NCBI GenBank assembly: GCA_022826645.1 | Contig: JAJDUM010000075.1 | Span: forward strand, 1 to 64,000 | Length of the DNA stretch: 64,000 nt | Direction of reading: 5' to 3' | DNA from: Candidatus Poribacteria bacterium | GTDB taxonomy: Bacteria > Poribacteria > WGA-4E > PCPOR2b | Shown: piece after piece, positions 8,718 to 45,159 of the stretch | Position numbering within the stretch: the first letter of the stretch is position 1 | How the letters are laid out: each line of letters opens with the position of its first letter | The notes under the pieces: generated by a model | Database searches by the model: none | The model's input: only the letters and a program-made list of their open reading frames with translations | What the model was told of the DNA's origin: nothing | Position numbers and translations under genes: made by a program

Positions 8718-9680
8718 TTATCGGGCGATCTGTTTAAGCCGTCCCCACATCGTGAATTGTCTGTCCACAGGAGCAACCGCGAAAGCAGGACTATACCACG
8801 TAGGATGAGAGTCACGCACTACAGGGCTGTTGGTCAGATTTTGCTGGTTCTTGCCATCAATGTCCATCACGTAGATTTCCCAGTTCCCATCCCTATTTGA
8901 AGAGAAGGCAATCCGTCTGCCATTTGAGGACCATGAGGGTTCACGGTCAACATGGTGATTTTTGGTAAGTTGTTGAGGAATCCCGCCATCGGCGGTCATC
9001 ACGTAGATTTCCATGTCTTCCCCCTTCGGCACAGCAGTGAAAGCGATTTGCTTGCCGTCGGGAGACCATGAAGGTGCCCAGCTATCACGGTGACTTCCGG
9101 TGAGTTTCTGGATATTTCCTCCATTGGTATCCATCACATAGATATCCCAGTTAGCAAACTTATTGGAAGTAAAGGCAATGCGTTGGCTGTCCGGGGACCA
9201 CGAGGGATTACGGTCAATATGGAAACTGTTGGTGAGATTTCGATGATTACTTCCGTCGGCGTCCATTACGTAAATATCTGTCTTTTCCCGCTTACCAGCC
9301 CTATCAGAGGTGAAGGCAATGCGTTTGCCGCTTGGTGACCACGAAGGTTCCCAGTCACTATGACGGTTATCTGTGAGCTGTCGAAGGTTCCCACCATCAA
9401 TGTCCATGGCGTAGATATCCCAGTTTTTATTACTCAGGGAAGCGAAGGCGATACGTTTGCCATCGGGAGACCAAGAGAGAGAATTGTCAGCCCAGAGATT
9501 GTCTGTAAGTTTCCGAAGATTCCCGCCGTTGGTGTCCATTACGTAGATATCGACCTTATCATTAATCTCAGACGTAAAGGCGATTTGCGCTTGTGCGTCG
9601 GCACCTACCATCAGTGCAATCACAACCGACAGAGCAATGCTCGCTAAGATGAAATATGCTGCGTTATATTTCCGTTGCAT
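8718..9680 (-). CDS. Secreted PD40/TolB-like beta-propeller protein with C-terminal WxxLK tail
   Basis: A 320-residue exported protein. A signal peptide spans about residues 1-32, cutting near ADAQAQ. Six PD40 (WD40-like) repeats follow, each with the pattern DIYVMDxxGxNxxxLT...PSWSPDGKRIAF (about 33-295), giving a six-bladed TolB-type propeller without the TolB N-terminal domain. After a short linker the protein ends VAPVDRQFTMWGRLKQIAR, the tail shared with 12 other secreted proteins here. Start ATG 9680 follows AAGGAGGGAGGCACGCCAG. It is the third of three tandem paralogues. A periplasmic or surface scaffold or binding role is plausible; the ligand is unknown. Confidence 0.9.
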   Translation of the reverse strand: MQRKYNAAYFILASIALSVVIALMVGADAQAQIAFTSEINDKVDIYVMDTNGGNLRKLTDNLWADNSLSWSPDGKRIAFASLSNKNWDIYAMDIDGGNLRQLTDNRHSDWEPSWSPSGKRIAFTSDRAGKREKTDIYVMDADGSNHRNLTNSFHIDRNPSWSPDSQRIAFTSNKFANWDIYVMDTNGGNIQKLTGSHRDSWAPSWSPDGKQIAFTAVPKGEDMEIYVMTADGGIPQQLTKNHHVDREPSWSSNGRRIAFSSNRDGNWEIYVMDIDGKNQQNLTNSPVVRDSHPTWYSPAFAVAPVDRQFTMWGRLKQIAR

Positions 9681-9710
9681 CTGGCGTGCCTCCCTCCTTG
9701 TCGAAAACGG

Positions 9711-10676
9711 TTATTGGATGCCCTGTTTAAGCCAGCCCCAGATCGCGAATCGCTTACCCGCGGGAGCAACTGCAGCAAAAGAAGGACCATACCACGCGGG
9801 TTGAGAGTCATCCGCTATCGGATCTTTGGTTAGGTTTCGAGGGTTTTGTCCATCTGCATCCATCACGTAGATTTCCCAGTCCCCGTCTCTCTTGGAAGCG
9901 AAGGCAATGCGTTTGCTGTCGGAAGACCAAGAAGGTGAGTTGTCAGGATGGCGGTTTGCGGTCAAGTTTCGAGAATTCCTGCCATCAGCGTTCATTACAT
10001 AAATATCCGGGAGTTCATTGTGCCAATCTGTAACCCAAGACGAGAAGGCAATGTATTTGCCATCTGGAGACCAAGCGGGTAAACCATCGCGGCGGGCAGG
10101 ACTCTTAGTGAGGTTTCGAGGATTCTTACCATTGGCGTCCATCACGTAGATGTCCGGGTGAGCCTCCCGTTTAGACCGAGCCACGAAGACAATGCGTTTG
10201 CCATCTGGGGACCAGGCGGGGGCATATTCAACATGGCGACTAACTGTGATGTTTTGAGGAATTTTCCGATTGACATCCATCACGCAGATTTCACCATGGT
10301 CTCCCTTGACAGAAAAGAAAGCAATACGTTTGCCGTCGGGTGACCAAGCGGGATCACGATCAATCTCAGGATCGTCTGTGAGTTGTTGAAGATTATTCCC
10401 ATCGGCATCCATTACATAGATGTCCCAATTCCCCTCTCTGTCGGATTCGAAGGCGATGCGCTTGCCATCGGGGGACCAAGCGGGATCGCGGTCAGTTGCT
10501 GGATCGTTTGTGAGTTGTCGAGGATTTCCACCATGGACATCCATCACGTAGATGTCCGAGTTTCCATCTCTATTGGACACAAAGGCGATTTGTGCTTGTG
10601 CGTCGATGCCTGCCATCAGTGCTGTCAAACCTAAGAGGACAACTGTGGCCAACGCGAGAGTGTATCTCCGTTGCAT
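9711..10676 (-). CDS. Secreted PD40/TolB-like beta-propeller protein with C-terminal WxxLK tail
   Basis: A 321-residue paralogue of its neighbours. It has a signal peptide (about 1-28), then six to seven PD40 repeats, several with near-identical PAWSPDGKRIAF cores. The end VAPAGKRFAIWGWLKQGIQ carries the shared tail with Trp in place of the usual variable residue. The start is placed at ATG 10676 because GGAGG lies 8 bases upstream, exactly as in both paralogues; an in-frame ATG at 10700 would have no such site. The gap to the next propeller gene is 30 bp. Confidence 0.88.
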   Translation of the reverse strand: MQRRYTLALATVVLLGLTALMAGIDAQAQIAFVSNRDGNSDIYVMDVHGGNPRQLTNDPATDRDPAWSPDGKRIAFESDREGNWDIYVMDADGNNLQQLTDDPEIDRDPAWSPDGKRIAFFSVKGDHGEICVMDVNRKIPQNITVSRHVEYAPAWSPDGKRIVFVARSKREAHPDIYVMDANGKNPRNLTKSPARRDGLPAWSPDGKYIAFSSWVTDWHNELPDIYVMNADGRNSRNLTANRHPDNSPSWSSDSKRIAFASKRDGDWEIYVMDADGQNPRNLTKDPIADDSQPAWYGPSFAAVAPAGKRFAIWGWLKQGIQ

Positions 10677-10706
10677 CTGGCGTGCCTCCTTTGCTTTCAA
10701 AGACGG

Positions 10707-11687
10707 TTATCGTACTACCTGTTTGAGCCGGCCCCACATTGTGGATTGCTTGCCCGCGGGGGCGACTGAAAAAGTGGGAGCAACCGCAAAGGCAGGACCA
10801 AACCACGCAGGATGGGATTCATGTGCTAAAAGTGTGTTAGTTAGGTTTTGCGGATTTCCCCCGTCTGGATCCATCATATAGATGTCCCAATTCCCGTTCC
10901 TGCCAGACATAAAGGCAATGCGCTCGCCATCGGCAGACCATGAAGGGTAACTATCCATCGCGGGATCGTTTGTGAGTTGTTGAAGATTTCCCCCATCGGC
11001 ATCCATCACGTAAATGTCCGTTTCCTCACCCTGAACCGCCGCCGTAAAAGCGATACGTTTTCCGTCAGGAGACCATGAAGGTGCCCAGTTATTACGGTGA
11101 CTTCCGGTGAGATTTTGATGATTCTCCCCATCGGCATCCATCACATAGATGTCCCATCTAGCGCCCCTATGGGAGGCGAAGGCAATACGTTTGCCGTCGG
11201 GAGACCAAGCTGGGTAACGGTCGACATGGTGCGAGTTTGTGAGTTTTTTGGGATTCTCCCCATTCGCATCCATCACGTAAATATTTGCTTTTCCCCAGTC
11301 CTCCGCTCTATCGGACGTGAAGGCGATGCGCTCGCCATCGGGGGACCAAGAAGGCTCCCAGTCACTATGAATATTTTTGGTGAGTTTTTTCGGGTTCCCA
11401 CCATCGACCTCCACTATGTAGATGTCCCAATTTCTATTGCTCAGGGAAGCGAAGGCGATGCGTTTACCGTCGGGAGACCAGGAGAGCGGATCGTCAGCCC
11501 AGAGATTGTTTGTGAGTTGTCGAGGCTTCTGCCCTTCCGCGTCTATCACGTAGATGTCCACGTTGTCATTCGTTTCAGACGTAAAGGCAATTTTTGCCCG
11601 TGCGTCAACACCTATCACCAACGTCATTAGACCCAAGAGGACAACGCTAACTAGGATGAAATGTGCACTATTCCATTTCCGTTGCAT
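10707..11687 (-). CDS. Secreted PD40/TolB-like beta-propeller protein with C-terminal WxxLK tail
   Basis: A 326-residue first member of the three-gene propeller operon. The signal peptide covers about residues 1-30 (start MQRKWNSAHF, nearly the same as the third paralogue). Six PD40 repeats follow, then a linker with a small duplication (FAVAPTFSVAPAGK), and the end WGRLKQVVR. ATG 11687 has GGAGGCACGGCAG in front; the upstream in-frame ATG at 11711 lacks a site. Sequence order suggests it and the 8718-9680 copy are the closest pair, with the middle copy more diverged. Confidence 0.88.
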   Translation of the reverse strand: MQRKWNSAHFILVSVVLLGLMTLVIGVDARAKIAFTSETNDNVDIYVIDAEGQKPRQLTNNLWADDPLSWSPDGKRIAFASLSNRNWDIYIVEVDGGNPKKLTKNIHSDWEPSWSPDGERIAFTSDRAEDWGKANIYVMDANGENPKKLTNSHHVDRYPAWSPDGKRIAFASHRGARWDIYVMDADGENHQNLTGSHRNNWAPSWSPDGKRIAFTAAVQGEETDIYVMDADGGNLQQLTNDPAMDSYPSWSADGERIAFMSGRNGNWDIYMMDPDGGNPQNLTNTLLAHESHPAWFGPAFAVAPTFSVAPAGKQSTMWGRLKQVVR

Positions 11688-13308: not shown

Positions 13309-13327
13309 GGTTTTGTCGTCTCCTCTT

Positions 13328-28589: not shown

Positions 28590-30437
28590 ATGAAAATTCA
28601 GAAAATCTTTCTTGGCGCAGTTTGGTTTTTCATCAGTTTAATTAATCCAGTTATCGGTTCTGCTCAAGTACACACATCGGGTAATGTCGAAGTCCATATA
28701 GTCGGTGAAGGTTCACTTGGCGCAGTCCGGGACGATGAACTCGCTTACAACTTTAGGTTTCCTAAATCTGGAGGGAATTACTATCTGCACGAATTGTCGG
28801 AGATTTGGGTCGGTGATGCAAATGGAAATGTAGCCAGTGCGTGGGATTTAGATCCTGCTCAACCCGGTCCTCTCACAATTGGAGAGTGGGAAACTACATC
28901 AGCGAATGTAGAAAAAATAGGTGCCGCCGAACGACATACGATTGTCGCACGGTACGGTTCATCTGGAGTCGTCAATTTTCCACTCAATCTTTCGGTTGAC
29001 CAACAGAGTTTTTCTTGGAGTACCAACAATCATCCCGATGCAGATGATTTCGTTGTAATAAGATTAGTTGTGACAAACAACGGCAATACTGGGCTTGAGG
29101 GGATCTACGTTGCAACGATGGCGAATTGGGATGTTGATGGGACAGATTTAGAGGCTGGAGAGTTAAGCCGGGATTGGGTGGATTGGGATGAAACATATCA
29201 AACGTTGTTTACCTACGATGGGGATGACACTGACGGAATCAATGAGGTTCACACTGGCCTCACCCTGCTGGACGGAAAGTTAAGCACCCATCAGATCTTT
29301 CTGTTTTACGGTCCCGAAGGACAACCAACCGCCAACCTTTTTTTAGATGAAAGCCGATCCGGGTTCATGGCCGATCCGACCGCTTTTGCTACCAATAAGA
29401 GGGATATCGAGGCGCTTGGATTTCCGGCGTGGGATTATGTATCCATTATCTCAGCGGGACCCTATGACATACCGGCTAAACAGTTTATCGCTGTTACTTT
29501 TGCCCTTGTTGCTGGTGAGAACTTAGTAGATCTACAAAAAAATATCGGTGCCGCGAGAACCCTTACCTTTACGCCACAACGATTGGTGGCTGAGGTGATA
29601 AGAGGGAACGTCCAGTTGCAATGGGAACCTGCAATCAATTTAGGTCTGGCTGGCTATGCCGTCCTGAGGCGGGCGAAGAGTGAGAATGAATTCCAGCAGG
29701 TTGGCAGGGTTACCCAAGCGACTACCTTTGACGACACAGGGGTTCAAGGAGGCGTAGAATACACCTACAAGATCCGTCCTGTCCATGCCAGTGGACAGCT
29801 GCTTGAATTTGATTCTTCGGAGGTCAGTATCATCCCAGGCGATGTTCCGGACGCGCCTGTAGGATTAACGGCGGCGCTCAACGAAGACCAGATTATTCTT
29901 AATTGGACAACATCTGCGCGTCAGATCAGCAAATATCTTATCTATCGCAACCGCACGGGCAGACCGCCATGGACGCAGATTGCATCGGTCCCACCGGGAG
30001 TTTCCACTTTTGTTGATCGGGATGTTTATCCGGGATCAAAGTATTTCTATGCAGTCGCGGCGACAAATCCAGCCGGTGGAGAAGGTAAACTTTCCCAAAT
30101 TGTTGATGTTACCCTCCCTGAGGAAGCCATCATACCCCCCGAAGCAAATTTGGATAAAGTGATCTTTGTCCCGAATCCATACCGTCTGAACGGGAATGCG
30201 AATGGGATGGAGTTCCGCAATCTGCCCGACCGCGCGACAATCCGAATCTACAACAGTACCGGCGATCTCATTAGACAGATTGATCATCGCAACAACACCT
30301 CCATTCAACGTTGGGATGGGCGGACGGAGGCAGGTGAACAGATTTCTGCCGGCATCTACGTCTATCACATTGAGTCCATGAGGGAAGGGCAAAGGGGAAG
30401 GAATTCGGTAAGTGGGAAGTTTGCAGTGATTCGTTGA
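28590..30437 (+). CDS. Large secreted protein with Fn3 domains and FlgD-like C-terminal Ig domain
   Basis: A 615-residue exported protein. The signal peptide spans about residues 1-25 (ends GSAQV). Residues 30-325 are an uncharacterised beta-rich domain. Two fibronectin type III domains follow (about 330-415 with GYAVLRRAK..., and 420-510 with KYLIYRNR...TFVDRDVYPG). The C-terminus (about 520-615) is a FlgD-type Ig module: VIFVPNPYRLNG, RIYNSTGDLIRQID, RWDGRTEAGEQISAGIYVYHI. In other phyla this module is a sorting or anchoring domain of secreted proteins. Unlike the other exported proteins nearby it does not carry the WxxIK tail. Confidence 0.85.
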   Translation: MKIQKIFLGAVWFFISLINPVIGSAQVHTSGNVEVHIVGEGSLGAVRDDELAYNFRFPKSGGNYYLHELSEIWVGDANGNVASAWDLDPAQPGPLTIGEWETTSANVEKIGAAERHTIVARYGSSGVVNFPLNLSVDQQSFSWSTNNHPDADDFVVIRLVVTNNGNTGLEGIYVATMANWDVDGTDLEAGELSRDWVDWDETYQTLFTYDGDDTDGINEVHTGLTLLDGKLSTHQIFLFYGPEGQPTANLFLDESRSGFMADPTAFATNKRDIEALGFPAWDYVSIISAGPYDIPAKQFIAVTFALVAGENLVDLQKNIGAARTLTFTPQRLVAEVIRGNVQLQWEPAINLGLAGYAVLRRAKSENEFQQVGRVTQATTFDDTGVQGGVEYTYKIRPVHASGQLLEFDSSEVSIIPGDVPDAPVGLTAALNEDQIILNWTTSARQISKYLIYRNRTGRPPWTQIASVPPGVSTFVDRDVYPGSKYFYAVAATNPAGGEGKLSQIVDVTLPEEAIIPPEANLDKVIFVPNPYRLNGNANGMEFRNLPDRATIRIYNSTGDLIRQIDHRNNTSIQRWDGRTEAGEQISAGIYVYHIESMREGQRGRNSVSGKFAVIR

Positions 30438-30740: not shown

Positions 30741-31595
30741 TCATCTGCGCGCCTTAATCTCACCCCATTTTACGGCTATTTTGCCGGTAGGTTCGACGGC
30801 AGCGACTGGCGCATACTTGTCGAGCGACTTGCCCCGCTCACCTAACTCCTTGGCTTCTTTAACTTGAGCGGCGGTCAGTGCGTGGCTGAGGACCACCACT
30901 TCATCCATGACGCCTTGGACATATCCCAACTGATCTCTGCGCACTTTGCCCGCGTCCGGGTCGCGCAAATCGTGGCCAATGGTCAACGGGAAGTCAGTTG
31001 GTCGAAACGCGCCCCTCTGTTCCTTAACGATTTTTTCCTTTCCGTTGGTATAAACTCTGACCTCCTTGCCATCCGCAACCCCGGCAACGTGATACCAATC
31101 GTTTGCTAAAAGAAAATCTGGATCCACCGCAGCCGTTCGTCCACCTTCCGTATTGGCATCAAATGCGAACCCGCCTAGTTTAAACCCTTCACGAAACGTT
31201 CGCAGTGCATAAGAAGCCCAAAATCGCTTGTTTGAGTCCTTGAAAGGTGCGTTTTTCCAAACCAAGGACTGATCTCTTCCGAAATCGGGTCGCGTAAATT
31301 TAACCCAGCACATCAGCGTGACCTGATCCGTTGCATTCAGACTGTTGTCATGGGGAACCTCAAAGTAGGAGTCCGCCCCTTCCTCCAGTATAACACCGCC
31401 AGCAACTTTTCCCTTTGGCGTCCAACCGGCGCCCCCTTTGAAGTCGCCGTGGTTGCTGTTTGGAGAAGAATCTCTATGTGCATTTGCTTTGACATCAAAC
31501 GTCCAATAACCGAGGAGTTTGGCATCAACATCTATCAGAAAAGAACCGAGAAGGAAGATGAGCACTCCCCCAAAAATGATAAATCGTCGAGACAT
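30741..31595 (-). CDS. Secreted LamG (concanavalin-like) protein with WxxIK tail, paralogue 8 of 8
   Basis: A 284-residue protein. The signal peptide (about 1-25, ends VDAK) is followed immediately by the domain start LLGYWTFD, and a LamG/concanavalin A-like jelly roll fills about 26-245. Visible core strands are VTLMCWVKFTRP, WYHVAGVADGKEVRVYTNG and LGYVQGVMDEVVVLSHALT, the last being the MDEV motif of LamG folds. The end is VEPTGKIAVKWGEIKARR. LamG domains bind carbohydrates or proteins. AGGAGG lies before the ATG at 31595. It is the last gene of the array in transcription order. Confidence 0.9.
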   Translation of the reverse strand: MSRRFIIFGGVLIFLLGSFLIDVDAKLLGYWTFDVKANAHRDSSPNSNHGDFKGGAGWTPKGKVAGGVILEEGADSYFEVPHDNSLNATDQVTLMCWVKFTRPDFGRDQSLVWKNAPFKDSNKRFWASYALRTFREGFKLGGFAFDANTEGGRTAAVDPDFLLANDWYHVAGVADGKEVRVYTNGKEKIVKEQRGAFRPTDFPLTIGHDLRDPDAGKVRRDQLGYVQGVMDEVVVLSHALTAAQVKEAKELGERGKSLDKYAPVAAVEPTGKIAVKWGEIKARR

Positions 31596-31660: not shown

Positions 31661-32536
31661 CTACTTTGCCGTTTTAATCTCGCCCCATTTAATCGCTAAT
31701 TTGTCTTGAGGTTCCACTCCGAAGACAGGCTGGAAACTCTCAAGTGACTTCCCTCTTTCGCCCAGTTCCATTGCTTCTTGAATTTGACCCGCGGTCAGTG
31801 CATGGTCTAAAATCACCACTTCATCCATGATGCCCCGAACGAATCCCAGAAAGTGTCGCGCAACGGGTTCATCCGGATCGCGCAGATCAAACCCGATTGT
31901 CAACGGGTCATCAGAAGGTTGGAATACGCCCCGCTGCTTGCCAACTGCTTTCTCTTTTCCGTTAGTATAGACTCTAACGTTTGTACCATCAGCAGTTCCT
32001 GCAACGTGATACCATTCATCCACGACGAGCGGAAAATCTGGATCAATTGCAGCTGTTCGTGCTTCCGTCATATTTGCGTCAAACGAAAAGGAACCTCGAT
32101 TAATCCCGGGGCGATAGAGTCGCAAGGCGTACGAAGTCCAGAATCGCTTGTTTTCCGCAAAAGGAGCATTTTTCCAAATCAAGGAACCATCCTCGCCAAA
32201 ACCTTCAAAAGCGCCGGGATCCGTAAATTTGATCCAGCACATCATGGTGATTTGCCCTGTCTTCACGTTCAGACTTTCATGATGAGGGACTTCGAGCCAA
32301 GCTTCTTGCGCGTTCTCCAGTTGTAGTCCTCCACGGACTTTGCCCTTGTCCGTCCATTGTGCTTCACCGATGAACGCCTTGGTTTCCCCATCGTTGCGGT
32401 TTGGGGAGAGATCCTTTCCCAGATTATTTTTATCCTCGAAAGCCCAATAACCGAGGAGTTTGGCATCGGTGGTAGTTAAGGGACAATAGAAAAGATAGAT
32501 TAGCAGAGCGGCGAAAACGAGCACAATACGCAACAT
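31661..32536 (-). CDS. Secreted LamG protein with WxxIK tail, paralogue 7 of 8
   Basis: A 291-residue protein with signal peptide (about 1-26) and LamG fold. It differs from its neighbours by an acidic insertion in the first core strand pair (PGAFEGFGEDGSLIWKNAPF) and by MTEARTAAIDPDFPL before the WYHVAG strand. The tail is VEPQDKLAIKWGEIKTAK. ATG 32536 is preferred over the adjacent TTG because AGGAGG sits 9 bases upstream. Translation is independent of neighbours (65-bp gap downstream). Confidence 0.9.
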   Translation of the reverse strand: MLRIVLVFAALLIYLFYCPLTTTDAKLLGYWAFEDKNNLGKDLSPNRNDGETKAFIGEAQWTDKGKVRGGLQLENAQEAWLEVPHHESLNVKTGQITMMCWIKFTDPGAFEGFGEDGSLIWKNAPFAENKRFWTSYALRLYRPGINRGSFSFDANMTEARTAAIDPDFPLVVDEWYHVAGTADGTNVRVYTNGKEKAVGKQRGVFQPSDDPLTIGFDLRDPDEPVARHFLGFVRGIMDEVVILDHALTAGQIQEAMELGERGKSLESFQPVFGVEPQDKLAIKWGEIKTAK

Positions 32537-32632: not shown

Positions 32633-33490
32633 CTACCTCCTTGCTTTAATCGCGCCCCATAGGGTGGCTAACTTGCTCTCGGGCTCAACGGCGAAGATGG
32701 GATTGTACCCCTCAAGCGGCTTCCCTTTCTCGCCCAACTCCATTGCATCTTTGATTTCGGCACCGGTCAATGCTTTGTCGGCGACTATAACTTCGTCCAT
32801 GACACCGTTCATAAAAGCAAAATGTATCAATATGGGACGTAAATCATGACCAATTGTTAAAGGCAGGTCGGAAGGTTGGAACTCGCCCCTTTGGGGTCCC
32901 TTCCCCGTCTCTTTTCCGTTGGTATAGACTCGGATTTCGGTTCCATCGGCGGTCGCTGCAATGTGAAACCATTCCTTCTCCAGTTGATCCACTTCAGGAA
33001 ATTTTTTATCAACGACTGCGCTACGACCCTCCGTCATATTGGCATCAAATCCGAAACTACCGAATTGCGATTTGGGACGCCATATACGCAAGGCGTAAGA
33101 CGCCCAAAAGCGTTTGTTTGTTTCAAATGGTCCATACTTCCAGATTAAAGATTGTTCCCGACCATCACCTGTAAAATCGCCGGGATTACCAAATTTAGCC
33201 CAACACATCAAGGTAATCTGATCCTTTACGTTAAGGCTATTATCGTGCGGGACTTCAAGCCAAGACTTACCATCAAATTTGATCCCACCTCCGACTTTGC
33301 CCTTCGCAGTCCATTCCGCTGAACCTTCGCCTTTTAGTTCCCCATGATTGCGGTTTGGAGACGAATCCTTGCCAATCTCGTTTTTGCTCTGGAAAGCCCA
33401 ATAACCGAGGACTTTCGCATCAGCATGCATCGTCGAACAATATAAAAGGCAGATTAACAAAACCCAAGTACCTAAAACGGCACGCAACAT
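32633..33490 (-). CDS. Secreted LamG protein with WxxIK tail, paralogue 6 of 8
   Basis: A 285-residue protein with signal peptide (about 1-24, ends MHADAK) and LamG fold. It is very close along its whole length to the 33563-34420 copy (shared KDSSPNRNHGELKGEGSAEW, REQSLIWKYGPFETNKRFW), so the two are a recent tandem duplication. Tail VEPESKLATLWGAIKARR. The ATG at 33490 follows AAAGGAGAA. Confidence 0.9.
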   Translation of the reverse strand: MLRAVLGTWVLLICLLYCSTMHADAKVLGYWAFQSKNEIGKDSSPNRNHGELKGEGSAEWTAKGKVGGGIKFDGKSWLEVPHDNSLNVKDQITLMCWAKFGNPGDFTGDGREQSLIWKYGPFETNKRFWASYALRIWRPKSQFGSFGFDANMTEGRSAVVDKKFPEVDQLEKEWFHIAATADGTEIRVYTNGKETGKGPQRGEFQPSDLPLTIGHDLRPILIHFAFMNGVMDEVIVADKALTGAEIKDAMELGEKGKPLEGYNPIFAVEPESKLATLWGAIKARR

Positions 33491-33562: not shown

Positions 33563-34420
33563 CTACTGTCTCGCTTTAATCGCGCCCCATTGGGTGGTCA
33601 ATTTGTCCTCGGGTTCAACGGCGAAGATCGGATTGTACCCTTCAATTGGCTTCCCTCTGTCGCCCAAATCCATCGCCGTTTTAATTTCAGCAGCAGTCAG
33701 TGCCTTGTCGGCGACCACAACCTCATCCATGATACCGTTGACAAACGCATGATGACGTAATATGGGACGCAAGTCATGACCAATTGTTAGCGGGAGATCC
33801 GAAGCCTGAAACTCGCCTCTTTGGGGACCTTTTCCCGTCTCTTTCCCATTGGTATAAACTCGGACTTCAGTACCATCGGCGGTCGCTGCAATGTGAAACC
33901 ATTTTTTCTCTACGTCATCCACTTCAGGAAATTTCTTATCAACAGCTGCACTGCGTCCCTTTGTCATGTTGGCATCGAATCCGAAGCTACCGAATTGCGA
34001 CTTAGGACGCCACACGCGCAAGGCGTAAGAGGTCCAAAAGCGTTTGTTTGTTTCAAAGGGGCCATACTTCCAGATTAAGGATTGTTCCCGCCCATCACCT
34101 GTAAAATCGCCAGCGTTCGCGAATTTAACCCAACACATGAGGGTAATCTGATCCTTTGCATTGAGGCTATTGTCGTGAGGTACTTCAAGCCAAGAGTTAC
34201 CGTCAAATTTTATGCCGCCCCCGACTTTGCCCTTTGCAGTCCATTCCGCTGAGCCTTCTCCCTTTAGCTCTCCATGATTGCGGTTTGGAGACGAATCCTT
34301 GCCAATATCATTTTTGTTCTTGAAAGCCCAGTAGCCGAGGACTTTCGCGTCAGCATTCATTGTCAAACAAAATAGGAGGTAAGTTAACGAAACCGAAGTA
34401 CCCAAAACAATACGAAACAT
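33563..34420 (-). CDS. Secreted LamG protein with WxxIK tail, paralogue 5 of 8
   Basis: A 285-residue protein, near-duplicate of the previous copy; both the DNA and protein are highly similar. Signal peptide about 1-24, ending MNADAK. MDEVVVADKALTAAEIKTAMDLG closes the LamG domain, then VEPEDKLTTQWGAIKARQ. The start is placed at 34420 with AAAGGAAAA upstream, matching the N-terminus of its paralogues; an in-frame ATG at 34480 would add 20 residues without a ribosome site. Confidence 0.88.
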   Translation of the reverse strand: MFRIVLGTSVSLTYLLFCLTMNADAKVLGYWAFKNKNDIGKDSSPNRNHGELKGEGSAEWTAKGKVGGGIKFDGNSWLEVPHDNSLNAKDQITLMCWVKFANAGDFTGDGREQSLIWKYGPFETNKRFWTSYALRVWRPKSQFGSFGFDANMTKGRSAAVDKKFPEVDDVEKKWFHIAATADGTEVRVYTNGKETGKGPQRGEFQASDLPLTIGHDLRPILRHHAFVNGIMDEVVVADKALTAAEIKTAMDLGDRGKPIEGYNPIFAVEPEDKLTTQWGAIKARQ

Positions 34421-34480: not shown

Positions 34481-35338
34481 TTACTTCTGCGCTTTAATCG
34501 CCCCCCATTGGGTGGCTAATTTGTCCTCGGGCTCAACGGCGAAGATGGGATTAAATCCCTCAATTGACTTCCCTTTCTCACCCAAATCCATTGCCGTTTT
34601 GATTTCAGCAGCGGTCAGTGCTTTATCGGCAACCACAACTTCATCCATGGTACCCCTGACAAAAGCATGATGTGCTAATATGGGACGCAAATCATGGCCA
34701 ATCGTTAGCGGGAGATCCGAAGCCTGAAACTCGCCCCTTTGGGGTCCCTTTCCCGTCTCTTTGCCGTTGGTATAGACGCGGACTTCTGTTCCATCGGCGA
34801 CCGCTGCAATGTGATACCAGTTTTTTTCTACGTCACCTTGTGCGGGGAATTTTTTATCAACGGCCGCACTGCGTCCCTTTGTCATGTTGGCGTCAAATCC
34901 GAAGCTACCGAAGTCTGATTTGGGACGCCACACGCGCAAGGCGTAAGATGTCCAAAAGCGTTTGTTTGTTTCAAAGGGTCCATACTTCCAGATTAAGGAC
35001 TGCTCTCGACCACCGCCCTCGGCAAAATCGCCAGGAGCACTAAATTTAACCCAACACATCAGGGTTACTTGATCCTTAAGGTTAAGACTGTCATCGTGCG
35101 GGACTTCAAGCCAACCATTATCCAGCTGTAACCCGCCACCCACCTTGCCCCTTGCGTTCCATTCAGCGGTGCCTTGTCCCTTTAACTCTCCATTGTTACC
35201 GAATGGTCCCGAATCCTTGCCAACGTCCTTTTTGGTATTGAAAGCCCAATAACCGCGGACTTTTGCATCAGCATTCATCGTTGACCAACACAAAAGGCAG
35301 ATTAGCAAAATCCCAGCACTTAGAATGATACGAAACAT
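34481..35338 (-). CDS. Secreted LamG protein with WxxIK tail, paralogue 4 of 8
   Basis: A 285-residue protein with signal peptide (about 1-24) and LamG fold, belonging to the same recent subgroup as copies 5 and 6 but with an altered N-terminal part (KDSGPFGNNGELKGQGTAEW). Tail VEPEDKLATQWGAIKAQK. Start ATG 35338 follows AAAGGAGAA; an in-frame ATG at 35356 overlaps that site. Confidence 0.88.
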   Translation of the reverse strand: MFRIILSAGILLICLLCWSTMNADAKVRGYWAFNTKKDVGKDSGPFGNNGELKGQGTAEWNARGKVGGGLQLDNGWLEVPHDDSLNLKDQVTLMCWVKFSAPGDFAEGGGREQSLIWKYGPFETNKRFWTSYALRVWRPKSDFGSFGFDANMTKGRSAAVDKKFPAQGDVEKNWYHIAAVADGTEVRVYTNGKETGKGPQRGEFQASDLPLTIGHDLRPILAHHAFVRGTMDEVVVADKALTAAEIKTAMDLGEKGKSIEGFNPIFAVEPEDKLATQWGAIKAQK

Positions 35339-35412: not shown

Positions 35413-36273
35413 TTACTTTCTCGTTTTAATCTCACCCCATTGCGTGGCTAATTTACCTTCGGGCTCAACAGCGAAGACGGGATTGAACCCTTCAAGTGAC
35501 CTTCCTTTGTTACCCAAATCCATTGCTCCGTTGATTTGAGCTTCAGTCAGTGCTGTATCTACGATTACAACTTCATCAATGATCCCATAGAGAAACTCAC
35601 GCCCACCTAGCAAGCCGGGACGTAAATCGTAGCCAATCGTTAAGGGAAGATCTGTTGCTTGAAACTCCCCTCGTTGCGGGGAAGCTTTCTTCTCTTTCCC
35701 ATCGGTATAAATGCGGACTTCTGCTCCATCAGCGACACCCGCGATGTGATACCATGTTTTGTCGGCGTCCCCTGGGTCAGGAAAATCCGGATCTGCTGCC
35801 GCACTCCGACCACCTACCAAGTTAGCATCAAACCCGAAGCTACCAAACTTGGTATGCCTACGCCATACCCGCAAGGCATAAGAGGTCCAGAATCGCTTGT
35901 TTTTGGCAAAGGGACCATTCTTCCAAACAAGGGACTGATCTCGGCCAGTACCGCCAAATGGATCACCCTCGCCGCTAAATTGAACCCAACACATCATGGT
36001 AATTTGGTCCTTGACGTTAAGGCTATCATCGTGAGGTACTTCAAGCCAACCGTCTTTCAGTTTCAACCCGCCACCCACTTTGCCTCTTGCAATCCAATCG
36101 GCAGTTCCGTTGCCTTTCACCTCTCCGTCGTTGCGGTTCGGAGAGGAATCCTTGCCAAGATCATTTTTGCTGTTGAAAGCCCAGTAGCCGAGAAGTTTGG
36201 CATCAACAGTTATCAAGGGAAAGCAGAGACAGCAGATGATGACACAACCCAAAATAAACAATCGTCGAGACAT
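35413..36273 (-). CDS. Secreted LamG protein with WxxIK tail, paralogue 3 of 8
   Basis: A 286-residue protein. The signal peptide is longer and Cys-rich (CVIICCLCFPLITVDAK), but cleavage before DAK is still more likely than lipidation. The LamG fold contains GRDQSLVWKNGPFAKNKRFW and YGIIDEVVIVDTALT. Tail VEPEGKLATQWGEIKTRK. Start ATG 36273 has AAAGGAG at good spacing. Confidence 0.88.
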   Translation of the reverse strand: MSRRLFILGCVIICCLCFPLITVDAKLLGYWAFNSKNDLGKDSSPNRNDGEVKGNGTADWIARGKVGGGLKLKDGWLEVPHDDSLNVKDQITMMCWVQFSGEGDPFGGTGRDQSLVWKNGPFAKNKRFWTSYALRVWRRHTKFGSFGFDANLVGGRSAAADPDFPDPGDADKTWYHIAGVADGAEVRIYTDGKEKKASPQRGEFQATDLPLTIGYDLRPGLLGGREFLYGIIDEVVIVDTALTEAQINGAMDLGNKGRSLEGFNPVFAVEPEGKLATQWGEIKTRK

Positions 36274-36360
36274 TGATAACACTCCTTTCATCAAAACAGT
36301 CTATCTACCCACCTTTGTTATGGGAAGATAAATAGGATCAAATCGTGTTATTGGTCTGTT

Positions 36361-37227
36361 TCACTTATTTCTGGCTTTTAGTTCCCCCCATTTGACAGCC
36401 AATTTGCCTTGGGGGGCAACGTCAAAGAGCAACTCGAAATCCTCGAGCGATTTTCCTTTGTCACCTAACTCCATTGCTTCTTTGACTTGGGCTTGGGTTA
36501 TTGCCTTATCGAGGATAATCACTTCATCGAGGAGTCCGAAATGATAAGGCTTGGAGCCACCGCGGTCGGGTGGAATACGCAGATCAAAGCCAATCGTTAA
36601 CACCTGCTCCGACGGCTTAAACTCACCCCGCTGGTCGGCGACAGCTTTTTCTACCCCGTTGGTATAAAGTCGAACCTTTGTGCCATCGGCGGTTGCTGCG
36701 ATATGATACCACTCATTCACTTCGGGATGATCTTTATCTCCGGGGGCTGTAAACACACGCCCCTCAGTCATTTGGGCTTCGAATATAAAACTTCCCAACT
36801 TCTTTCTTGGACGAAGCTTTGCCAACGAATAGGAGGTCCAAAATCGCCGGTCTTTCTGATCCCCTTCTAATATGAAAGGACCGTTCTTGTAAATCAAAGA
36901 CACTTCACTCGATTCGCCTAAGGCACCGGCGTCAAAATTTGCCCAACACATCAGGGTAATCTGATCCTTGGGGGTGAGACTATCATCATGCGGGACTTCA
37001 AGCCATGAGATACCATCCAATTTCAAGGCACCACCGACCTGTCCCTTCACATCAAAGGCAGCAGCCTTTTTCGGCTCGCCGTGATTATCAAAGCCCGAAG
37101 AGTCCTTCCCTAATTTATCTTTGTCGTCAAACATCCAGTAACCGAGGGCTTTGGCGTCAACGTGGCTAGGCAACACACTGAGAAAATAGATGCACAGAAA
37201 CACAAGAATTGATCCAATACGATACAT
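36361..37227 (-). CDS. Secreted LamG protein with WxxIK tail, paralogue 2 of 8
   Basis: A 288-residue protein with signal peptide (about 1-24, ends HVDAK). Together with copy 1 it forms a second subgroup: both carry the insertion FILEGDxKDRxFW between core strands where the other six have a short NKRFW turn. Tail VAPQGKLAVKWGELKARNK. ATG 37227 follows AAAGGAGGG. Confidence 0.88.
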   Translation of the reverse strand: MYRIGSILVFLCIYFLSVLPSHVDAKALGYWMFDDKDKLGKDSSGFDNHGEPKKAAAFDVKGQVGGALKLDGISWLEVPHDDSLTPKDQITLMCWANFDAGALGESSEVSLIYKNGPFILEGDQKDRRFWTSYSLAKLRPRKKLGSFIFEAQMTEGRVFTAPGDKDHPEVNEWYHIAATADGTKVRLYTNGVEKAVADQRGEFKPSEQVLTIGFDLRIPPDRGGSKPYHFGLLDEVIILDKAITQAQVKEAMELGDKGKSLEDFELLFDVAPQGKLAVKWGELKARNK

Positions 37228-37317
37228 GGATAGCCCTCCTTTTGCGAAAAAACCCACTATCCATCTCAATACGGGTCAGATAGTGGGTCTAGGGTGTTTA
37301 CACAGCATGCAAGCAGC

Positions 37318-38187
37318 TTACTGTCTTGTCGATTTAATTGCGCCCCACTGCGTGGCTAATTTGCCTTCGGCTTCCACCGAAAAAATCTCCACCATCTCGG
37401 TGAGGGACTTCCCTCTTTCACCCAGATTAAACGCTTCTTGAACCTGAGCTGGGGTCAGCGCCTGATCGAGAATCATCACCTCATCTATGGTTCCCCGCAG
37501 GTGGCGTCTCGCACCGCCGACACGTTCCACCGGAACGCGGTGGTCGTAGCCGATTGTCAAGGACTGCTCGGAATTCCTAAACGGACCCCGCTGCACACCT
37601 TTCGCTCTCTCTTTGCCGTCTCGGTAGATTTTAATTTCGGTGCCATCCGCCACTGCTGCAACGTGGTGCCAATCATTTGGTTCCGGAATCAGCGGATCCC
37701 CGGGCAACACAGCCGATCGACCGCCTTCTGTGTTCGCATCGAATCCAAAAGTACCACATGCACATCTATCGCGCCACTTGACCAATCCGTAAGATGACCA
37801 AAACGTCCGATCCTTCTTGTCACCTTCCAGTATGAAGGGACCGTTTTTGTAGATTAAACTCTGTTCTTCCGCGGGACCGCTAAAACTGATCCAACACATC
37901 AGTGTTACTTGATCTTTGACATTCAGACTGTTATCATGGGGCACCTCAAGATAGTGTGGAGCTTGGTCTCCCCCGCCCGTCAGATTCAAGGCACCGCCGA
38001 CTTTTCCCTGCCGTGTCCAAGCACCTGCCTTCAACTCACCGTCATTCCTGAAGTGTGACAAATCCTCTCCGAGCTTCTTTTCGTCGTCGAAGGTCCAGTA
38101 GCCGAGGACTTTGGCACCCGCATCTATTGGTAGGAACAGGCAAATTAGCGGAATGCCAATTAAAAATAATAAAATAATACGAGCCAT
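37318..38187 (-). CDS. Secreted LamG protein with WxxIK tail, paralogue 1 of 8
   Basis: A 289-residue protein with signal peptide (about 1-26, ends DAGAK). LamG fold with the FILEGDKKDRTFW insertion and an unusual Cys pair (DRCACGTFGF). Closing motif GTIDEVMILDQALTPAQVQEAF. The tail is VEAEGKLATQWGAIKSTRQ, the only one of 13 with Ala instead of Pro at position -8 from Trp. GGGAGG precedes ATG 38187. It follows the ThuA-like gene by 105 bp. Confidence 0.9.
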   Translation of the reverse strand: MARIILLFLIGIPLICLFLPIDAGAKVLGYWTFDDEKKLGEDLSHFRNDGELKAGAWTRQGKVGGALNLTGGGDQAPHYLEVPHDNSLNVKDQVTLMCWISFSGPAEEQSLIYKNGPFILEGDKKDRTFWSSYGLVKWRDRCACGTFGFDANTEGGRSAVLPGDPLIPEPNDWHHVAAVADGTEIKIYRDGKERAKGVQRGPFRNSEQSLTIGYDHRVPVERVGGARRHLRGTIDEVMILDQALTPAQVQEAFNLGERGKSLTEMVEIFSVEAEGKLATQWGAIKSTRQ

Positions 38188-38292
38188 AATAATCCTCCCT
38201 AATATCCTTAGCTATCCTCCTTTAATCTTTATGAAAATTGTGGAAAGGGGACAAGTTTAACTTGCCCCCAAGTATTGAGTTGACGTTTGTTT

Positions 38293-39219
38293 CTATCGAC
38301 CGGTCTTGATCTGTGCCCAAGTCATGGGTAGCTTTGTCTTCGGGTTCACTGCGCGAAGGTTCGCATCTTCAAACCAATCGATCATGTTCCGCCAGAGGAG
38401 CCATGAATTTCCTTGACCTAACTCCTTCTGACCGAAGCCCATGTTCATATTGGTGATTTCGGCACTGCCGCTCAGGACATAAGCCCCTCTTTGAACTCGT
38501 CCATAGACGATGATGGCAATATTCGGATCACCGATATCTTCGGCTGCCACCTCAGCGTGTCCGGGCAACAGACCTACATCGTAACCGGGAAAATCCCCGT
38601 CGCCTACGAAGGTCGGATCTGGAGACTTAGAGGTATCGATGATGCCACCCACCATATCTTTGGTCAGCGGCGTGCCTTCAACGTACGCAAGGCAGCATTT
38701 GTCCGCTACAGGGAACCCTGCCAACGCCTTGTCCATACCGTCCCAAAGGGCTACCAACGGTCTATCTTCGGGATCCCGACCGCCGGTGCTGATGACGCCG
38801 TGACCTTCGTCCATGAACTCCTTGAGTTTGTTACCATTTTTTTCAATCCATGCTTGCAGGTCAGGACTATCCCGCCAGATGTGGTAATTGAATACAATAA
38901 CATCCCACTCGCCACTCCAGAGTTCCCTTTCAAATCTGGCTACATCGTCGCCAATGATCTCCAGAAAATCTTTACCTTCTGTAAAGCCAAATTGCTTGAA
39001 GATCGCGTCGTACCACGTACCTTGAAGCGCGGTTTTAATTTTTCCGCCATCAAATGCAGCGGGATCTCGAGCGGGCGGTCCCCAAACACCCCAGCTTTCG
39101 GGCGTGTTGTTAAACACTAAAACTGTGACGTCACGTGCCTCAACGGCTGAGGGTAAGCTCCAAATGGCTCCAATAGCGAGGAGCGTTATAAGGATTAAAG
39201 ATACATTCATCCGTAACAT
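38293..39219 (-). CDS. Secreted ThuA-like (class I amidotransferase-fold) protein with WxxIK tail
   Basis: A 308-residue exported protein. The signal peptide covers about 1-29 (ends AVEA). Residues 30-285 resemble ThuA/trehalose-utilisation-type domains of glutamine-amidotransferase fold: VTVLVFNNTPESWG, DVIVFNYHIWRDSP, FMDEGHGVISTGGRD, and NIAIIVYGRVQRGAYVLSGSAE. The nucleophile Cys of true amidotransferases is absent, as usual for ThuA. It ends VNPKTKLPMTWAQIKTGR, the same tail as the LamG proteins despite an unrelated fold. GGAGG precedes ATG 39219; it is the first gene of the array and lies behind promoter and palindrome at 39349-39410. Confidence 0.8.
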   Translation of the reverse strand: MLRMNVSLILITLLAIGAIWSLPSAVEARDVTVLVFNNTPESWGVWGPPARDPAAFDGGKIKTALQGTWYDAIFKQFGFTEGKDFLEIIGDDVARFERELWSGEWDVIVFNYHIWRDSPDLQAWIEKNGNKLKEFMDEGHGVISTGGRDPEDRPLVALWDGMDKALAGFPVADKCCLAYVEGTPLTKDMVGGIIDTSKSPDPTFVGDGDFPGYDVGLLPGHAEVAAEDIGDPNIAIIVYGRVQRGAYVLSGSAEITNMNMGFGQKELGQGNSWLLWRNMIDWFEDANLRAVNPKTKLPMTWAQIKTGR

Positions 39220-39348
39220 TGTCTTATCCTCCATAATTTAAAGTGTCCATCCAAAAAATCCGAGGGAGTTACCTATATGTTGCGCCGGTCTTCCCATTTG
39301 ACTTTCGGGATAGGTTTATTAATCGTTTTCAACTTTTTGAGTTGGGCA

Positions 39349-41036: not shown

Positions 41037-41081
41037 CACGCTGATAGCTCGTTTCTGAAAGTATAAGCAGGAAAGGGAGAA

Positions 41082-42455: not shown

Positions 42456-42477
42456 AGATTAGTGAGGACTTTTAACT

Positions 42478-43449
42478 GTGAGTGAAAACACTTTGGAGGA
42501 TCCAACCGTCGCAGAAAGCAAAACCGTTTCGGGTTTGACAACGAAAGAGCGTGGTGATCGCATTTTCGCCTATCTGCTCAATGTGCCGAGCGTCATTCTC
42601 ATCCTTGCACTGATTGCGTATCCGGTTGTCGTATCATTATGGACCAGTTTACACCGCTACAATCTGCGGCGTCCGGAGGAATATGCCTTTGTTGGCTTGG
42701 GTAATTATGTTGATGTATTGACCAGTTACGATTTTTGGCATTCGCTCCGCGTTACCCTCTATTTTGGAGGGATGTCGGTGGCGTTGGTTATCGTTGTTGC
42801 GATTAGCATTGCCGTACTGTTCAACGAGCAATTCAGAGGGCGAGGACTCGCGCGTGCGCTGTTATTAATTCCGTGGGCAGTGCCGGGTATCGTCAACGGC
42901 TTGATGTGGGCGGGTCTATTCGGTGAGCACGGCGCGTTTAACCAGATGATGGGCGATTTCGTCGGGTTGTTCAATCGCCTAACAGGTGCTGAGATTGAGT
43001 ATCTGGGCATGGCTTCGCCGTTTGTCGCACTCAACGCCGCGATTGCCGCTCACGTCTGGCGGAGCGTACCGTTTGCATGTATTATCTTTTTGGCTGCGTT
43101 GCAGGCAATTCCCGGCGAGCAATACCGCGCGGCACAGGTGGATGGCGCGAGCGCATGGCGTCGTTTCCAACACATCACGCTGCCGTGGCTGCTACACCCA
43201 ATCATGATCGTTGCTATCATTGAGACAATGAATGCTTTCCGAGGTGGCTTCGACATCATCTACGCCCTAACTGCGGGTGGTCCTGGCGATGCAACCTACG
43301 TCATCGCGTGGCAGACTTACAAAGAAGCCTTTGGACGCCTCAACTTCGGCGGGTCAAATGCCTACTCCTATCTAATCACGCTTATTACCATGGGACTGGC
43401 GATTATTTATATTCGGGTGTTGTATCGTCGAGGTACCGTTCAAGGTTAA
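42478..43449 (+). CDS. ABC sugar transporter permease (MalF/UgpA-like)
   Basis: A 323-residue inner-membrane permease with six helices. The EAA loop contacting the ATPase is EQYRAAQVDGASAWRRFQHITLP (about 215-237). A cytosolic N-terminal tail of about 30 residues precedes TM1. GTG start with GAGGA upstream; 22 bp after copy 2. It pairs with the next permease. Confidence 0.94.
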   Translation: MSENTLEDPTVAESKTVSGLTTKERGDRIFAYLLNVPSVILILALIAYPVVVSLWTSLHRYNLRRPEEYAFVGLGNYVDVLTSYDFWHSLRVTLYFGGMSVALVIVVAISIAVLFNEQFRGRGLARALLLIPWAVPGIVNGLMWAGLFGEHGAFNQMMGDFVGLFNRLTGAEIEYLGMASPFVALNAAIAAHVWRSVPFACIIFLAALQAIPGEQYRAAQVDGASAWRRFQHITLPWLLHPIMIVAIIETMNAFRGGFDIIYALTAGGPGDATYVIAWQTYKEAFGRLNFGGSNAYSYLITLITMGLAIIYIRVLYRRGTVQG

Positions 43450-43461
43450 GAAAGGGATCTT

Positions 43462-44319
43462 GTGAATAGACCAGGTGTCAAACGAACGATTTTATATGTA
43501 CTTGTAGTGATTGCGGCACTGTATATTGTAATACCGTACCTGTGGGTTGTGTTGGTTAGCTTCATGCAGGAGCGCGAAGCGACTCAACTGCATTGGATTC
43601 CACGCGAGCCAACGATGGAAAACTATCTGATGTACTTCCGTGTATATGGTGATAGTGCGGAAATCGGTGCGGCAACAGCGCGGCAGTTTCCGCGTGCGAT
43701 TCTCAACAGTTTCATCATCGGGGGGACGGTGATGTTTATCAATCTGTTCTTCGGATCGCTTGCAGCGTATGCGTTAGCACGGATGAATTTTGGCGGGAAC
43801 CTTGCCCTATTGTTGTTTTATCTCGGTTCGCGTAGCGTGCCGGGTGTGGCGATTATGATACCGATGTATCTCGTCATGCGCAGCTACGGTTTGTTAGATA
43901 CTCACATTGCCGTCATTCTTGCGCATGTAACCTTTACGCTACCGTTCACTATCTGGATCCTTAAGGGCTATTTCCAAACAGTACCGCTCGATTTGGAGCG
44001 CGCGGCGCGGGTCGATGGCTGCTCCCGTCTCGGTGCACTGTTCCGTGTGTTCCTGCCGGTAACAACGCCGGGCATGATTGCAGTGGGTATTTTCTCCTTC
44101 ATCTCGTCGTGGGGCGAGTTTTTCTTCGCCCTCTTGTTCACTTCTACCATATTCTCAAAACCTGTGACTGTAGTGGCGTCGGACTTTGCACAGGAGCTGC
44201 AAATCGACTTCACAATTATTGCCGCCGGTGGAGTGTTGGTGGTACTGCTTCCGATTATCTTGGCGTTCATCTTCCAACGATTCATCATTCACGGCATTGG
44301 CGGTGCGGTGACGGGATAG
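43462..44319 (+). CDS. ABC sugar transporter permease (MalG/UgpE-like)
   Basis: A 285-residue inner-membrane permease with six helices and the EAA motif DLERAARVDGCSRLGALFRVFLP (about 175-197). GTG start with AAAGGG upstream; 12 bp after its partner permease. Confidence 0.94.
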   Translation: MNRPGVKRTILYVLVVIAALYIVIPYLWVVLVSFMQEREATQLHWIPREPTMENYLMYFRVYGDSAEIGAATARQFPRAILNSFIIGGTVMFINLFFGSLAAYALARMNFGGNLALLLFYLGSRSVPGVAIMIPMYLVMRSYGLLDTHIAVILAHVTFTLPFTIWILKGYFQTVPLDLERAARVDGCSRLGALFRVFLPVTTPGMIAVGIFSFISSWGEFFFALLFTSTIFSKPVTVVASDFAQELQIDFTIIAAGGVLVVLLPIILAFIFQRFIIHGIGGAVTG

Positions 44320-44373
44320 CCCTACAAAAAGAAAAGCAGTAAAATCTGTGGAGGGAAGGATAGGTAATTTTCC

Positions 44374-45159
44374 GTGAAGCGAGGGACAATTATATTAATA
44401 CTAATGTTGCTGCTATCATCGGCCTCCGCAGAGGTACTTCGTCATGATTTCAACAATCTGGATTTGGAGGGTTGGGTTATCAGCGAAGATCACCAGATCG
44501 CATCAATTGAAAATGGTGAGTTGATTGCAGGTGTCCCGCCTCCCCAACCAGACATCACAACTCTCGTTCTGTTACCCTTTGAAGGGATGCCCGCCAGTGA
44601 TTATGATGTCGCGGTGTCTGTGAAACTCGATCTTTTCGTGGTCCACCCGATTGTTGCTAACGGAACAGGAATTGGACTCCGTGGGCATTCAACTGAAAAA
44701 TTCTTCGGGCTTGTAGATAACGACAAGTTACAAGATCCACGATCTCTGGGTGACTTAGGTTACTATTTTTTTATTGGACAGAACACCGAAGGACAATGGG
44801 GTGTTGGCGCATCAATTTGGCATATCGAGCAGGTGCTGGTGAATGCAGAAGGAATTATTCGGGGAATATTCGTAGAGAATACATTGCTGAGATTTGCACC
44901 GTTTGATGTCAAATTGGGTGAGTGGTATCGCCTAAGGGTCATTGCAGAGGGAAATCTGTTCCGAGTCTTTGTCAACGAAGAACAGATGTTGGGGTTGAGA
45001 GATGTCCGCTATTCCGAAGGGATAATCTTTTTGTCGTCGGGATTTGGCAACCTTGCTCGCTTTGACGACTTTGAGGTAACATACGATGCCGCTGCCGCTG
45101 TCCAACCGCAGAAAAAATTGGCAACAATGTGGAGTGAAATAAAAACCGAAGCCCAATAA
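44374..45159 (+). CDS. Secreted LamG/DUF1080-like protein with WxxIK tail, inside ABC operon
   Basis: A 261-residue exported protein. Signal peptide about 1-19 (ends SSASA). A concanavalin-type beta sandwich follows (about 20-235: DFNNLDLEGWVIS, VKLDLFVVHP, WYRLRVIAEGNLFRVFVNEEQML, ARFDDFEVTYD), resembling DUF1080 or LamG-type sugar-binding modules. It ends VQPQKKLATMWSEIKTEAQ, the tail found on the LamG array. Its position between permease and ATPase genes ties the tail-bearing proteins to the importer. GTG start; the ribosome site is weak. Confidence 0.78.
   Translation: MKRGTIILILMLLLSSASAEVLRHDFNNLDLEGWVISEDHQIASIENGELIAGVPPPQPDITTLVLLPFEGMPASDYDVAVSVKLDLFVVHPIVANGTGIGLRGHSTEKFFGLVDNDKLQDPRSLGDLGYYFFIGQNTEGQWGVGASIWHIEQVLVNAEGIIRGIFVENTLLRFAPFDVKLGEWYRLRVIAEGNLFRVFVNEEQMLGLRDVRYSEGIIFLSSGFGNLARFDDFEVTYDAAAAVQPQKKLATMWSEIKTEAQ

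Follow-up and report, generated by a model that had tools for sequence, protein, structure and literature searches.

This study focused on a short C-terminal tail found on proteins encoded by a 64,000-nucleotide stretch of a Candidatus Poribacteria genome (assembly GCA_022826645.1, contig JAJDUM010000075.1, positions 1 to 64,000 of the forward strand), referred to here as the window. Thirteen genes of the window code for proteins that end in the same tail of about 20 residues, built around a Trp, and one further protein ends instead in a C-terminal domain (CTD) of the kind carried by cargo of the type IX secretion system (T9SS). The tail probably represents, in free form, a stem that stands directly before such CTDs in other Poribacterial proteins, and this relationship is the basis of the role proposed for it below. 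The features of the window are as follows, with the evidence for each in brackets (ORF, open reading frame; HMM, hidden Markov model built from the 13 tails).

8718..8786, minus strand: Trp tail of the PD40 protein of gene 8718-9680 (ORF, Trp alignment, HMM)
9711..9779, minus strand: Trp tail of PD40 protein 9711-10700 (ORF, Trp alignment, HMM)
10707..10775, minus strand: Trp tail of PD40 protein 10707-11711 (ORF, Trp alignment, HMM)
28590..30437, plus strand: tail-less protein ending in a T9SS/FlgD-type CTD at about 30156-30434 (CHU_C, E=1.2e-6; both a seed and a match of the CTD profile)
30741..30806, minus strand: Trp tail of LamG protein 30741-31595 (ORF, Trp alignment, HMM)
31661..31726, minus strand: Trp tail of LamG protein 31661-32539 (ORF, Trp alignment, HMM)
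32633..32698, minus strand: Trp tail of LamG protein 32633-33490 (ORF, Trp alignment, HMM)
33563..33628, minus strand: Trp tail of LamG protein 33563-34480 (ORF, Trp alignment, HMM)
34481..34546, minus strand: Trp tail of LamG protein 34481-35356 (Trp alignment, HMM, AlphaFold)
35413..35478, minus strand: Trp tail of LamG protein 35413-36294 (Trp alignment; best score of the 13-tail HMM in the genome)
36361..36429, minus strand: Trp tail of LamG protein 36361-37269 (Trp alignment, HMM)
37318..37386, minus strand: Trp tail of LamG protein 37318-38187, with Ala at -8 (Trp alignment, HMM)
38293..38358, minus strand: Trp tail of protein 38293-39234, which has no Pfam match at E<=0.1 (Trp alignment, HMM)
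45091..45159, plus strand: Trp tail of the 3keto-disac_hyd (DUF1080)-type protein 44374-45159 (Pfam, Trp alignment, HMM)

All 13 ORFs were present at these coordinates, and their ends could be aligned on the Trp without gaps. Val at -10, Lys or Arg at -5, Ile or Leu at +3, Lys at +4 and a distance of 7-8 residues from Trp to the stop were found in 13/13, and Pro at -8 in 12/13, the sole departure being the Ala of protein 37318. This is the shared WxxIK pattern described in the original prediction, which had been made from the sequence of the window, and the HMM recovered those 13 places only within the window. The bodies that precede the tails comprise three PD40 propellers, eight LamG proteins, one protein of the 3keto-disac_hyd type and the one without a Pfam match; the Pfam scan covered seven of the 13 bearers together with the 28590 protein, and the remaining paralogues were assigned by alignment. 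Since the eight LamG proteins are tandem paralogues, as are the three PD40 proteins, the window tails represent four body families. The claim that the preceding domains are unrelated holds in that the same tail follows unrelated bodies, but it has to be qualified, as 11 of the 13 bearers are tandem paralogues. Similarly, the labels PD40, LamG and DUF1080-like were recovered while that of 'ThuA-like' for the 38293 protein was not. The 28590 protein does lack the tail, as had been stated, its end being occupied by the T9SS/FlgD-type domain.

The home genome (6.04 Mb, 127 contigs) contains many more copies. The 13-tail HMM found 107 places at E<=10 (150 of 203 candidates scored), and 101 C-terminal copies were read in 40 stretches that hold nearly all of these matches (all bar four weak ones, one of which was added later). 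One hundred were kept, the ORF dropped being one in which the regular expression had picked another Trp, and whose gene is a Leu-form stem at the end of contig C119. Stripped of their tails, the 100 bodies fell into 17 clusters, with 45, 26, 8, 4, 3, 2 and 2 members and ten singles, one of the latter a 49-residue fragment. At E<=1e-4, Pfam assigned PD40 to 45 of the bodies, Laminin_G_3 to 31 and Kelch to eight, and the rarer types included CBM9, DUF2927, a DUF3108-like domain and sub-threshold 3keto-disac_hyd. Bodies in other Poribacteria genomes included CBM9, DUF4960 and sub-threshold F5/8 type C. One protein array of the home genome (L038, C26:107000-123000) carries longer-than-usual tails, which extend some 12 residues beyond the Trp (WGKVKRGNTYGVR type).

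Across the phylum, a profile built from 72 tails detected the tail in 84/84 Poribacteria genomes searched and in 21/21 genera, with 29 to 107 matches per genome at E<=0.01 (at most 107 candidates scored); three named genomes for which 150 candidates were scored gave 78, 118 and 137. A DNA pattern for KLATTWGxIK, run on one genome per species (84,980 species), matched at least 115 stretches, for a chance expectation that we estimate at about one match. Among the matches listed (80 of 115), 79/80 loci are labelled Poribacteria, and 83/83 exact matches in those 80 loci run into a stop within 12 residues. The single exception among them (L111, JAFDHL010000343.1) is a 3.7 kb contig of a 'Deltaproteobacteria' metagenome-assembled genome, with a short frame before the tail (2639-2695, minus strand) and an adjoining ORF that is esterase-like by eye. 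Because this tail, of Poribacterial type, is the sole match in its own 4.0 Mb genome and among 297 genomes of its phylum, the contig is probably mis-binned. Phyla other than these two were covered through the pattern scan only, and viral contigs gave no matches to the same pattern.

The position of the tail is almost invariably terminal. In stop-ended ORFs from 190 sources (1.48 Mb in all, with some overlap between them), 342 of 345 profile matches at E<=0.01 end no more than 12 residues from the stop, and two of the other three are one sequence present twice. A search that ignored the Trp column gave 329 C-terminal matches and none in the internal control. With 342/345 terminal, and 329 against 0 when the Trp was ignored, the tail is not a chance pattern. 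Trp was present in 329/329 of the free C-terminal forms, a ratio biased by the loci having mostly been chosen with the Trp-form profile. Most bearers also appear to be exported: a home-made rule found signal-peptide-like N-termini in 86/100 bearers, compared with 80/271 control ORFs, and a looser home-made rule, used without a control, in 280/312. The matches are, then, terminal rather than mostly internal, and lie on proteins that look exported rather than cytosolic, which supports the original reading of a sorting, anchoring or complex-assembly tag; its function we infer further below. Anchoring as lipoproteins was considered and rejected, a lipobox-like site being present in only 9/312 bearers.

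The consensus of 332 non-redundant tails is (F/L)(A/S)V-E-P-x-G-K-L-A-T-T-W-G-x-(I/L)-K, usually followed by three residues, and 276/332 end 2-4 residues past Lys+4. Lys+4 is conserved in 99% of them, Val-10 in 98%, Lys-5 in 96% and Gly+1 in 89%, with Trp at 100% fixed by row selection. Compared between body clusters, the tails are 57% identical, a value raised by selection because rows were picked by tail score, and the 14 residues before them 8%. The mean net charge from -6 to the chain end is +2.8. A hydrophobic stretch is absent from the 332 tails (highest 12-residue Kyte-Doolittle mean 1.2, average 0.12), so that the originally noted difference from LPXTG, PEP-CTERM and GlyGly-CTERM extends to the larger set. 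An amphipathic helix was not supported, the hydrophobic moment averaging 0.292 compared with 0.277 for shuffled tails. In the AlphaFold model of LamG protein 34481, ten-residue blocks of the body scored 73-98 and those of the tail 58, 57 and 50, and in that of the L120 protein of another Poribacteria genome the terminal segment 272-289 lies below 50. The latter protein belongs to a body cluster distinct from LamG, and its fold had no Foldseek match at E<=0.001. These low-confidence end pieces, together with the unrelated bodies that precede them, agree with the original view that the tail is not part of a fold.

At E<=10, 0/72 tails matched NCBIfam, including its curated C-terminal sorting and CTD models; Pfam matched the 72 tails with two unrelated families only, by one member each and without any CTD family; and a PDB sequence search with the tail returned two matches, with E of 0.35 and 0.59. 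A CTD-type fold, which would be a beta-sandwich or a three-stranded sheet, was not seen, the tail consisting of about 20 residues drawn as a low-confidence helix in two models, with motifs B, D and E not sought singly. PEP-CTERM, GlyGly-CTERM and LPXTG are modular C-terminal sorting tags with a hydrophobic helix, and the tail resembles them in its modularity but differs in having no such helix. The cargo peptides of encapsulins and microcompartments are also short terminal peptides on many proteins but act in the cytosol, unlike the tail, whose bearers mostly have signal-peptide-like N-termini. The Trp tail, covered by no Pfam or NCBIfam model, appears to be undescribed.

What connects the tail to T9SS is its occurrence inside other proteins. 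Three weak internal matches of the 13-tail HMM each lie directly before a T9SS-type CTD. A CTD profile made from seven Poribacterial CTDs, that of the 28590 protein included, gave 79 matches in the home genome, and 55 distinct CTD ORFs were read. Scored without its Trp column, the tail motif exceeded 20 bits in 6/55 of these proteins (true tails have a median of 41 bits), and 0/4894 control windows elsewhere in the same proteins reached 8 bits. In all six, position 0 is Leu and lies 11 residues ahead of the Asn that opens NFPNP or NYPNP, and four further CTD proteins are alike by eye, three of them shifted by one residue and one (L065) with Trp. A Leu-form profile of 20 stems, run on the whole home genome, gave 15 matches at E<0.05. 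In 12 of these a CTD follows after 10-13 nt, two lie at contig ends and probably belong to a single gene, and the last (C26:50198, E=0.025), a Trp tail, was left out of the CTD-adjacency comparison. Nine of the 12 were read letter by letter, and one of the 12 has Phe, not Leu, at position 0. The two contig ends (C119:26629-26682, minus strand, and C50:20556-20609, plus strand) carry the only Leu-type stem seen without a CTD, and there a stop follows seven residues past Lys+4.

The same arrangement was found in other genomes, where 12/12 match the stem plus CTD profile, 10/12 with a match that covers the stem, among the matches listed. The spacing from Lys+4 to the N of N[FY]PNPF was six residues in 29/29 fused stems, although 4-8 were allowed, and the background of the spacing expression is 20/14550 random windows. 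These 29 stems come from 82 CTD starts, which cannot be read as a frequency because the sample included loci from a stem-favouring search. Their position 0 is Leu in 23, Trp in five and Phe in one, the Trp cases L293 and L294 reading like ordinary tails that run on into a CTD, and many fused stems show Lys-Arg-Thr-Ala/Ser-Leu ahead of the CTD. A comparison of the tail and Leu-stem profiles, both built from motif-picked sequences, gave 97.2% (E=4.5e-11). One PD40 body occurs with both endings, the protein with stem and CTD sharing 35% identity with a Trp-tailed one over a length of 353 residues. Judged by sequence, the tail is the same element as the pre-CTD stem, usually with Trp where the stem has Leu. 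The original prediction had cited the T9SS CTD as an unrelated analogue, and in this respect it needs to be corrected, since in other Poribacterial proteins that very domain comes directly after a stem which the tail matches. Stop-codon read-through from tail into CTD was rejected: the 360 nt downstream of 332 tails yielded one marginal CTD-like match, and stop usage was TAA 174, TAG 107 and TGA 51 in tail genes compared with 207, 143 and 127 in control ORFs.

T9SS CTDs (TIGR04183 type A, TIGR04131 type B, PF13585) share with the tail a C-terminal position on unrelated, Sec-exported bodies, and in Poribacteria they are joined to the same stem. They differ in being beta-sheet domains, of 69-82 residues in the long form and 40-55 in the short form according to passages of PMC11969387, while the tail is some 20 residues long and fits no CTD model. 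In Bacteroidota, PorV is described in part of PMC12618676 as carrying cargo from SprA to PorU, and the same passages of PMC11969387 have PorU remove the CTD within the linker and join the new C-terminus to surface polysaccharide, usually with a preference for a small residue after the cut. The Poribacterial stem resembles this linker and PorU cleavage region in lying between mature body and CTD, at the predicted mature end. Elsewhere, as far as these excerpts describe it, the linker is flexible with a short cleavage preference, whereas the stem is a conserved 17-residue motif that also stands alone at the chain end. Because the stem fills the cleavage linker and the free tails mostly stop 2-4 residues past Lys+4, the region in which many fused stems carry their Lys-Arg-Thr-Ala/Ser-Leu, the Trp tail looks like a directly encoded mature end of such cargo.

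The interpretation preferred here, to which we give a probability of about 0.5, is that the tail may act in attachment or sorting, as a tag that imitates the C-terminus of mature T9SS cargo. Starting from the shared element, its position, the export signals, its phylum-wide presence and the co-existing T9SS-type genes described below, we infer a cleavage point, a surface location, a receptor and a chemistry. The Sec pathway would export the Trp-tailed proteins, with the tail as a C-terminal address tag used throughout the phylum. In CTD cargo, PorU, the C25 peptidase that acts as T9SS sortase, would cut off the CTD roughly at the stem, which would leave the stem as the mature C-terminus, and Trp-tailed proteins would be made with this end already exposed. 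The exposed stem would then keep the protein on the outer membrane or surface in one of two ways: a T9SS-associated component, such as a PorV-family barrel or the C25 enzyme, would recognise it, or it would accept a C-terminal conjugation. The Trp at position 0 may provide the binding for which the Leu form relies on its CTD. Both forms would be explained best if the stem has a part to play in the mature protein, whether as anchor, ligand or acceptor.

Candidate components of a T9SS-type machine were detected in nearly all Poribacteria genomes. SprA-like matches at E<=0.001 were present in 83/84, mostly in ORFs of about 2200 residues, PorV-family matches above the cut-off in 84/84 (8-24 matches each at E<=0.001), and Peptidase_C25 above the cut-off in 83/84. 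The home genome has 15 PorV-family matches, two C25 proteins and an SprA-like protein, and the genes located there include:

C24:133983-137219, minus strand: SprA-like gene
C74:7613-8710, minus strand: PorV-family gene
C110:25046-26173, minus strand: Peptidase_C25 gene

The five C25 proteins that were read each end in a domain aligning with the CTD of window protein 28590. At two loci (L239 1004-8271, minus strand; L242 5205-12643, plus strand) a C25 gene with a CTD is followed by a gene that, by eye, ends like a PorV-type barrel, and at another (L243 4771-8910, minus strand) a non-C25 gene ending in a CTD is followed by a PorV-family match. Kamke et al. 2014 (PMC3909097), in the passages available, reported TIGR04183 domains in Poribacteria without the structural genes of T9SS. 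A 2016 survey by Abby et al. (PMC4793230), again in the portion consulted, found T9SS in 60/97 Bacteroidetes genomes and in no other clade, and the T9SS passages of PMC7313196 deal with Bacteroidetes. The candidate machinery in nearly all Poribacteria genomes is new compared with the 2014 report of none, and neither it nor the Trp tail was announced in the titles and abstract openings listed in searches of open-licence papers.

As to gene neighbourhoods, nine consecutive tail genes of the window (30741-39234, minus strand) stand back to back with a plus-strand group (39663-44319) whose products resemble, by eye, two solute-binding proteins and a pair of ABC permeases; tail gene 44374 comes next. 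A tail-bearing gene (L227 6255-7061, plus strand) immediately precedes the sprA-like gene of another genome (G081).

Several observations weigh against the proposal of a tag that mimics mature T9SS cargo. The SprA matches are distant, with 1/84 above the curated cut-off, and the GldM/PorM motor was found in 0/13 genomes, although the control was silent too. Operon linkage between tail and sprA was examined and rejected, the neighbourhoods mostly differing across nine loci with no shared tail gene. T9SS-type cargo does not depend on having the stem, because only 12/79 home-genome CTD matches are preceded by a stem match, and the Trp of the five fused proteins from other genomes means that the division between Trp and Leu is not absolute. 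Cleavage by the Porphyromonas PorU is called sequence-independent in the abstract of PMC4804311, which speaks against a conserved cleavage motif. Finally, the proposal does not account for how the Trp-tailed proteins, having no CTD, would cross the outer membrane.

Among the alternatives, the tail could be the docking tag of a T9SS-independent assembly, in which a scaffold in the periplasm or on the surface gathers Sec-exported proteins by their tails. A modular, basic and non-hydrophobic tag on lectin-like, CBM-like and propeller bodies that carry no CTD would suit such a system. This explanation is nevertheless doubtful: no scaffold candidate turned up, though no family-directed search for a scaffold was made, and it leaves the presence of the same element before T9SS-type CTDs, at a fixed spacing, unexplained. 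It is also unlikely that the tail is a minimal T9SS export signal, with SprA and PorV taking the 17-20-residue stem and carrying CTD-less proteins over the outer membrane. The element shared with the pre-CTD stem, the T9SS-type parts in 83-84 of 84 genomes, and the constant Trp of the free forms, biased as that ratio is, are in keeping with it, but the known T9SS signals described in the passages of PMC11969387 are predicted or solved beta-sheet domains that contain motifs B, D and E, which applies even to the short signals of Prevotella intermedia, of 40-55 residues, and the tail is without a CTD-family match. A vestigial origin, from genes that once coded for CTD cargo and kept only the linker, would account for the same body being found with either ending, but is disfavoured by the conservation of the tail, with near-invariant Val, Lys, Gly and Lys over 332 proteins, and becomes very improbable given the single marginal CTD-like match downstream and the fact that the free forms have Trp where the stem has Leu. 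That the tail marks proteins for degradation or quality control by a periplasmic protease, to which its extreme C-terminal position and the short motif would be suited, is highly unlikely on the argument that such a signal seems wasteful on about 100 proteins per genome. That the tail belongs to each body fold, as its final structural element, is hardly credible, since the helix drawn at the tail in both AlphaFold models has blocks of pLDDT 43-58, compared with mostly >80 in the body, and unrelated bodies precede the same tail.

C-terminal sorting tags have repeatedly led to whole secretion systems, and the Trp tail opens a direct way into the surface proteome of these uncultured sponge symbionts. 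It reopens the question raised in 2014, in that Poribacteria have T9SS-type signals, now with candidates for the missing machine. The switch between Trp and Leu, in the free and CTD-joined forms respectively, is a simple clue to what retains T9SS cargo once it has been exported. A more tentative extension, possible but falling short of probable, is that Poribacteria possess a CTD-free second branch of T9SS secretion or attachment, in which a Trp peptide of 17-20 residues, constructed like the pre-CTD stem, would suffice for the envelope placement of dozens to more than 100 lectin-like and propeller proteins per cell. If true, this branch would use the smallest sorting signal tied to T9SS.

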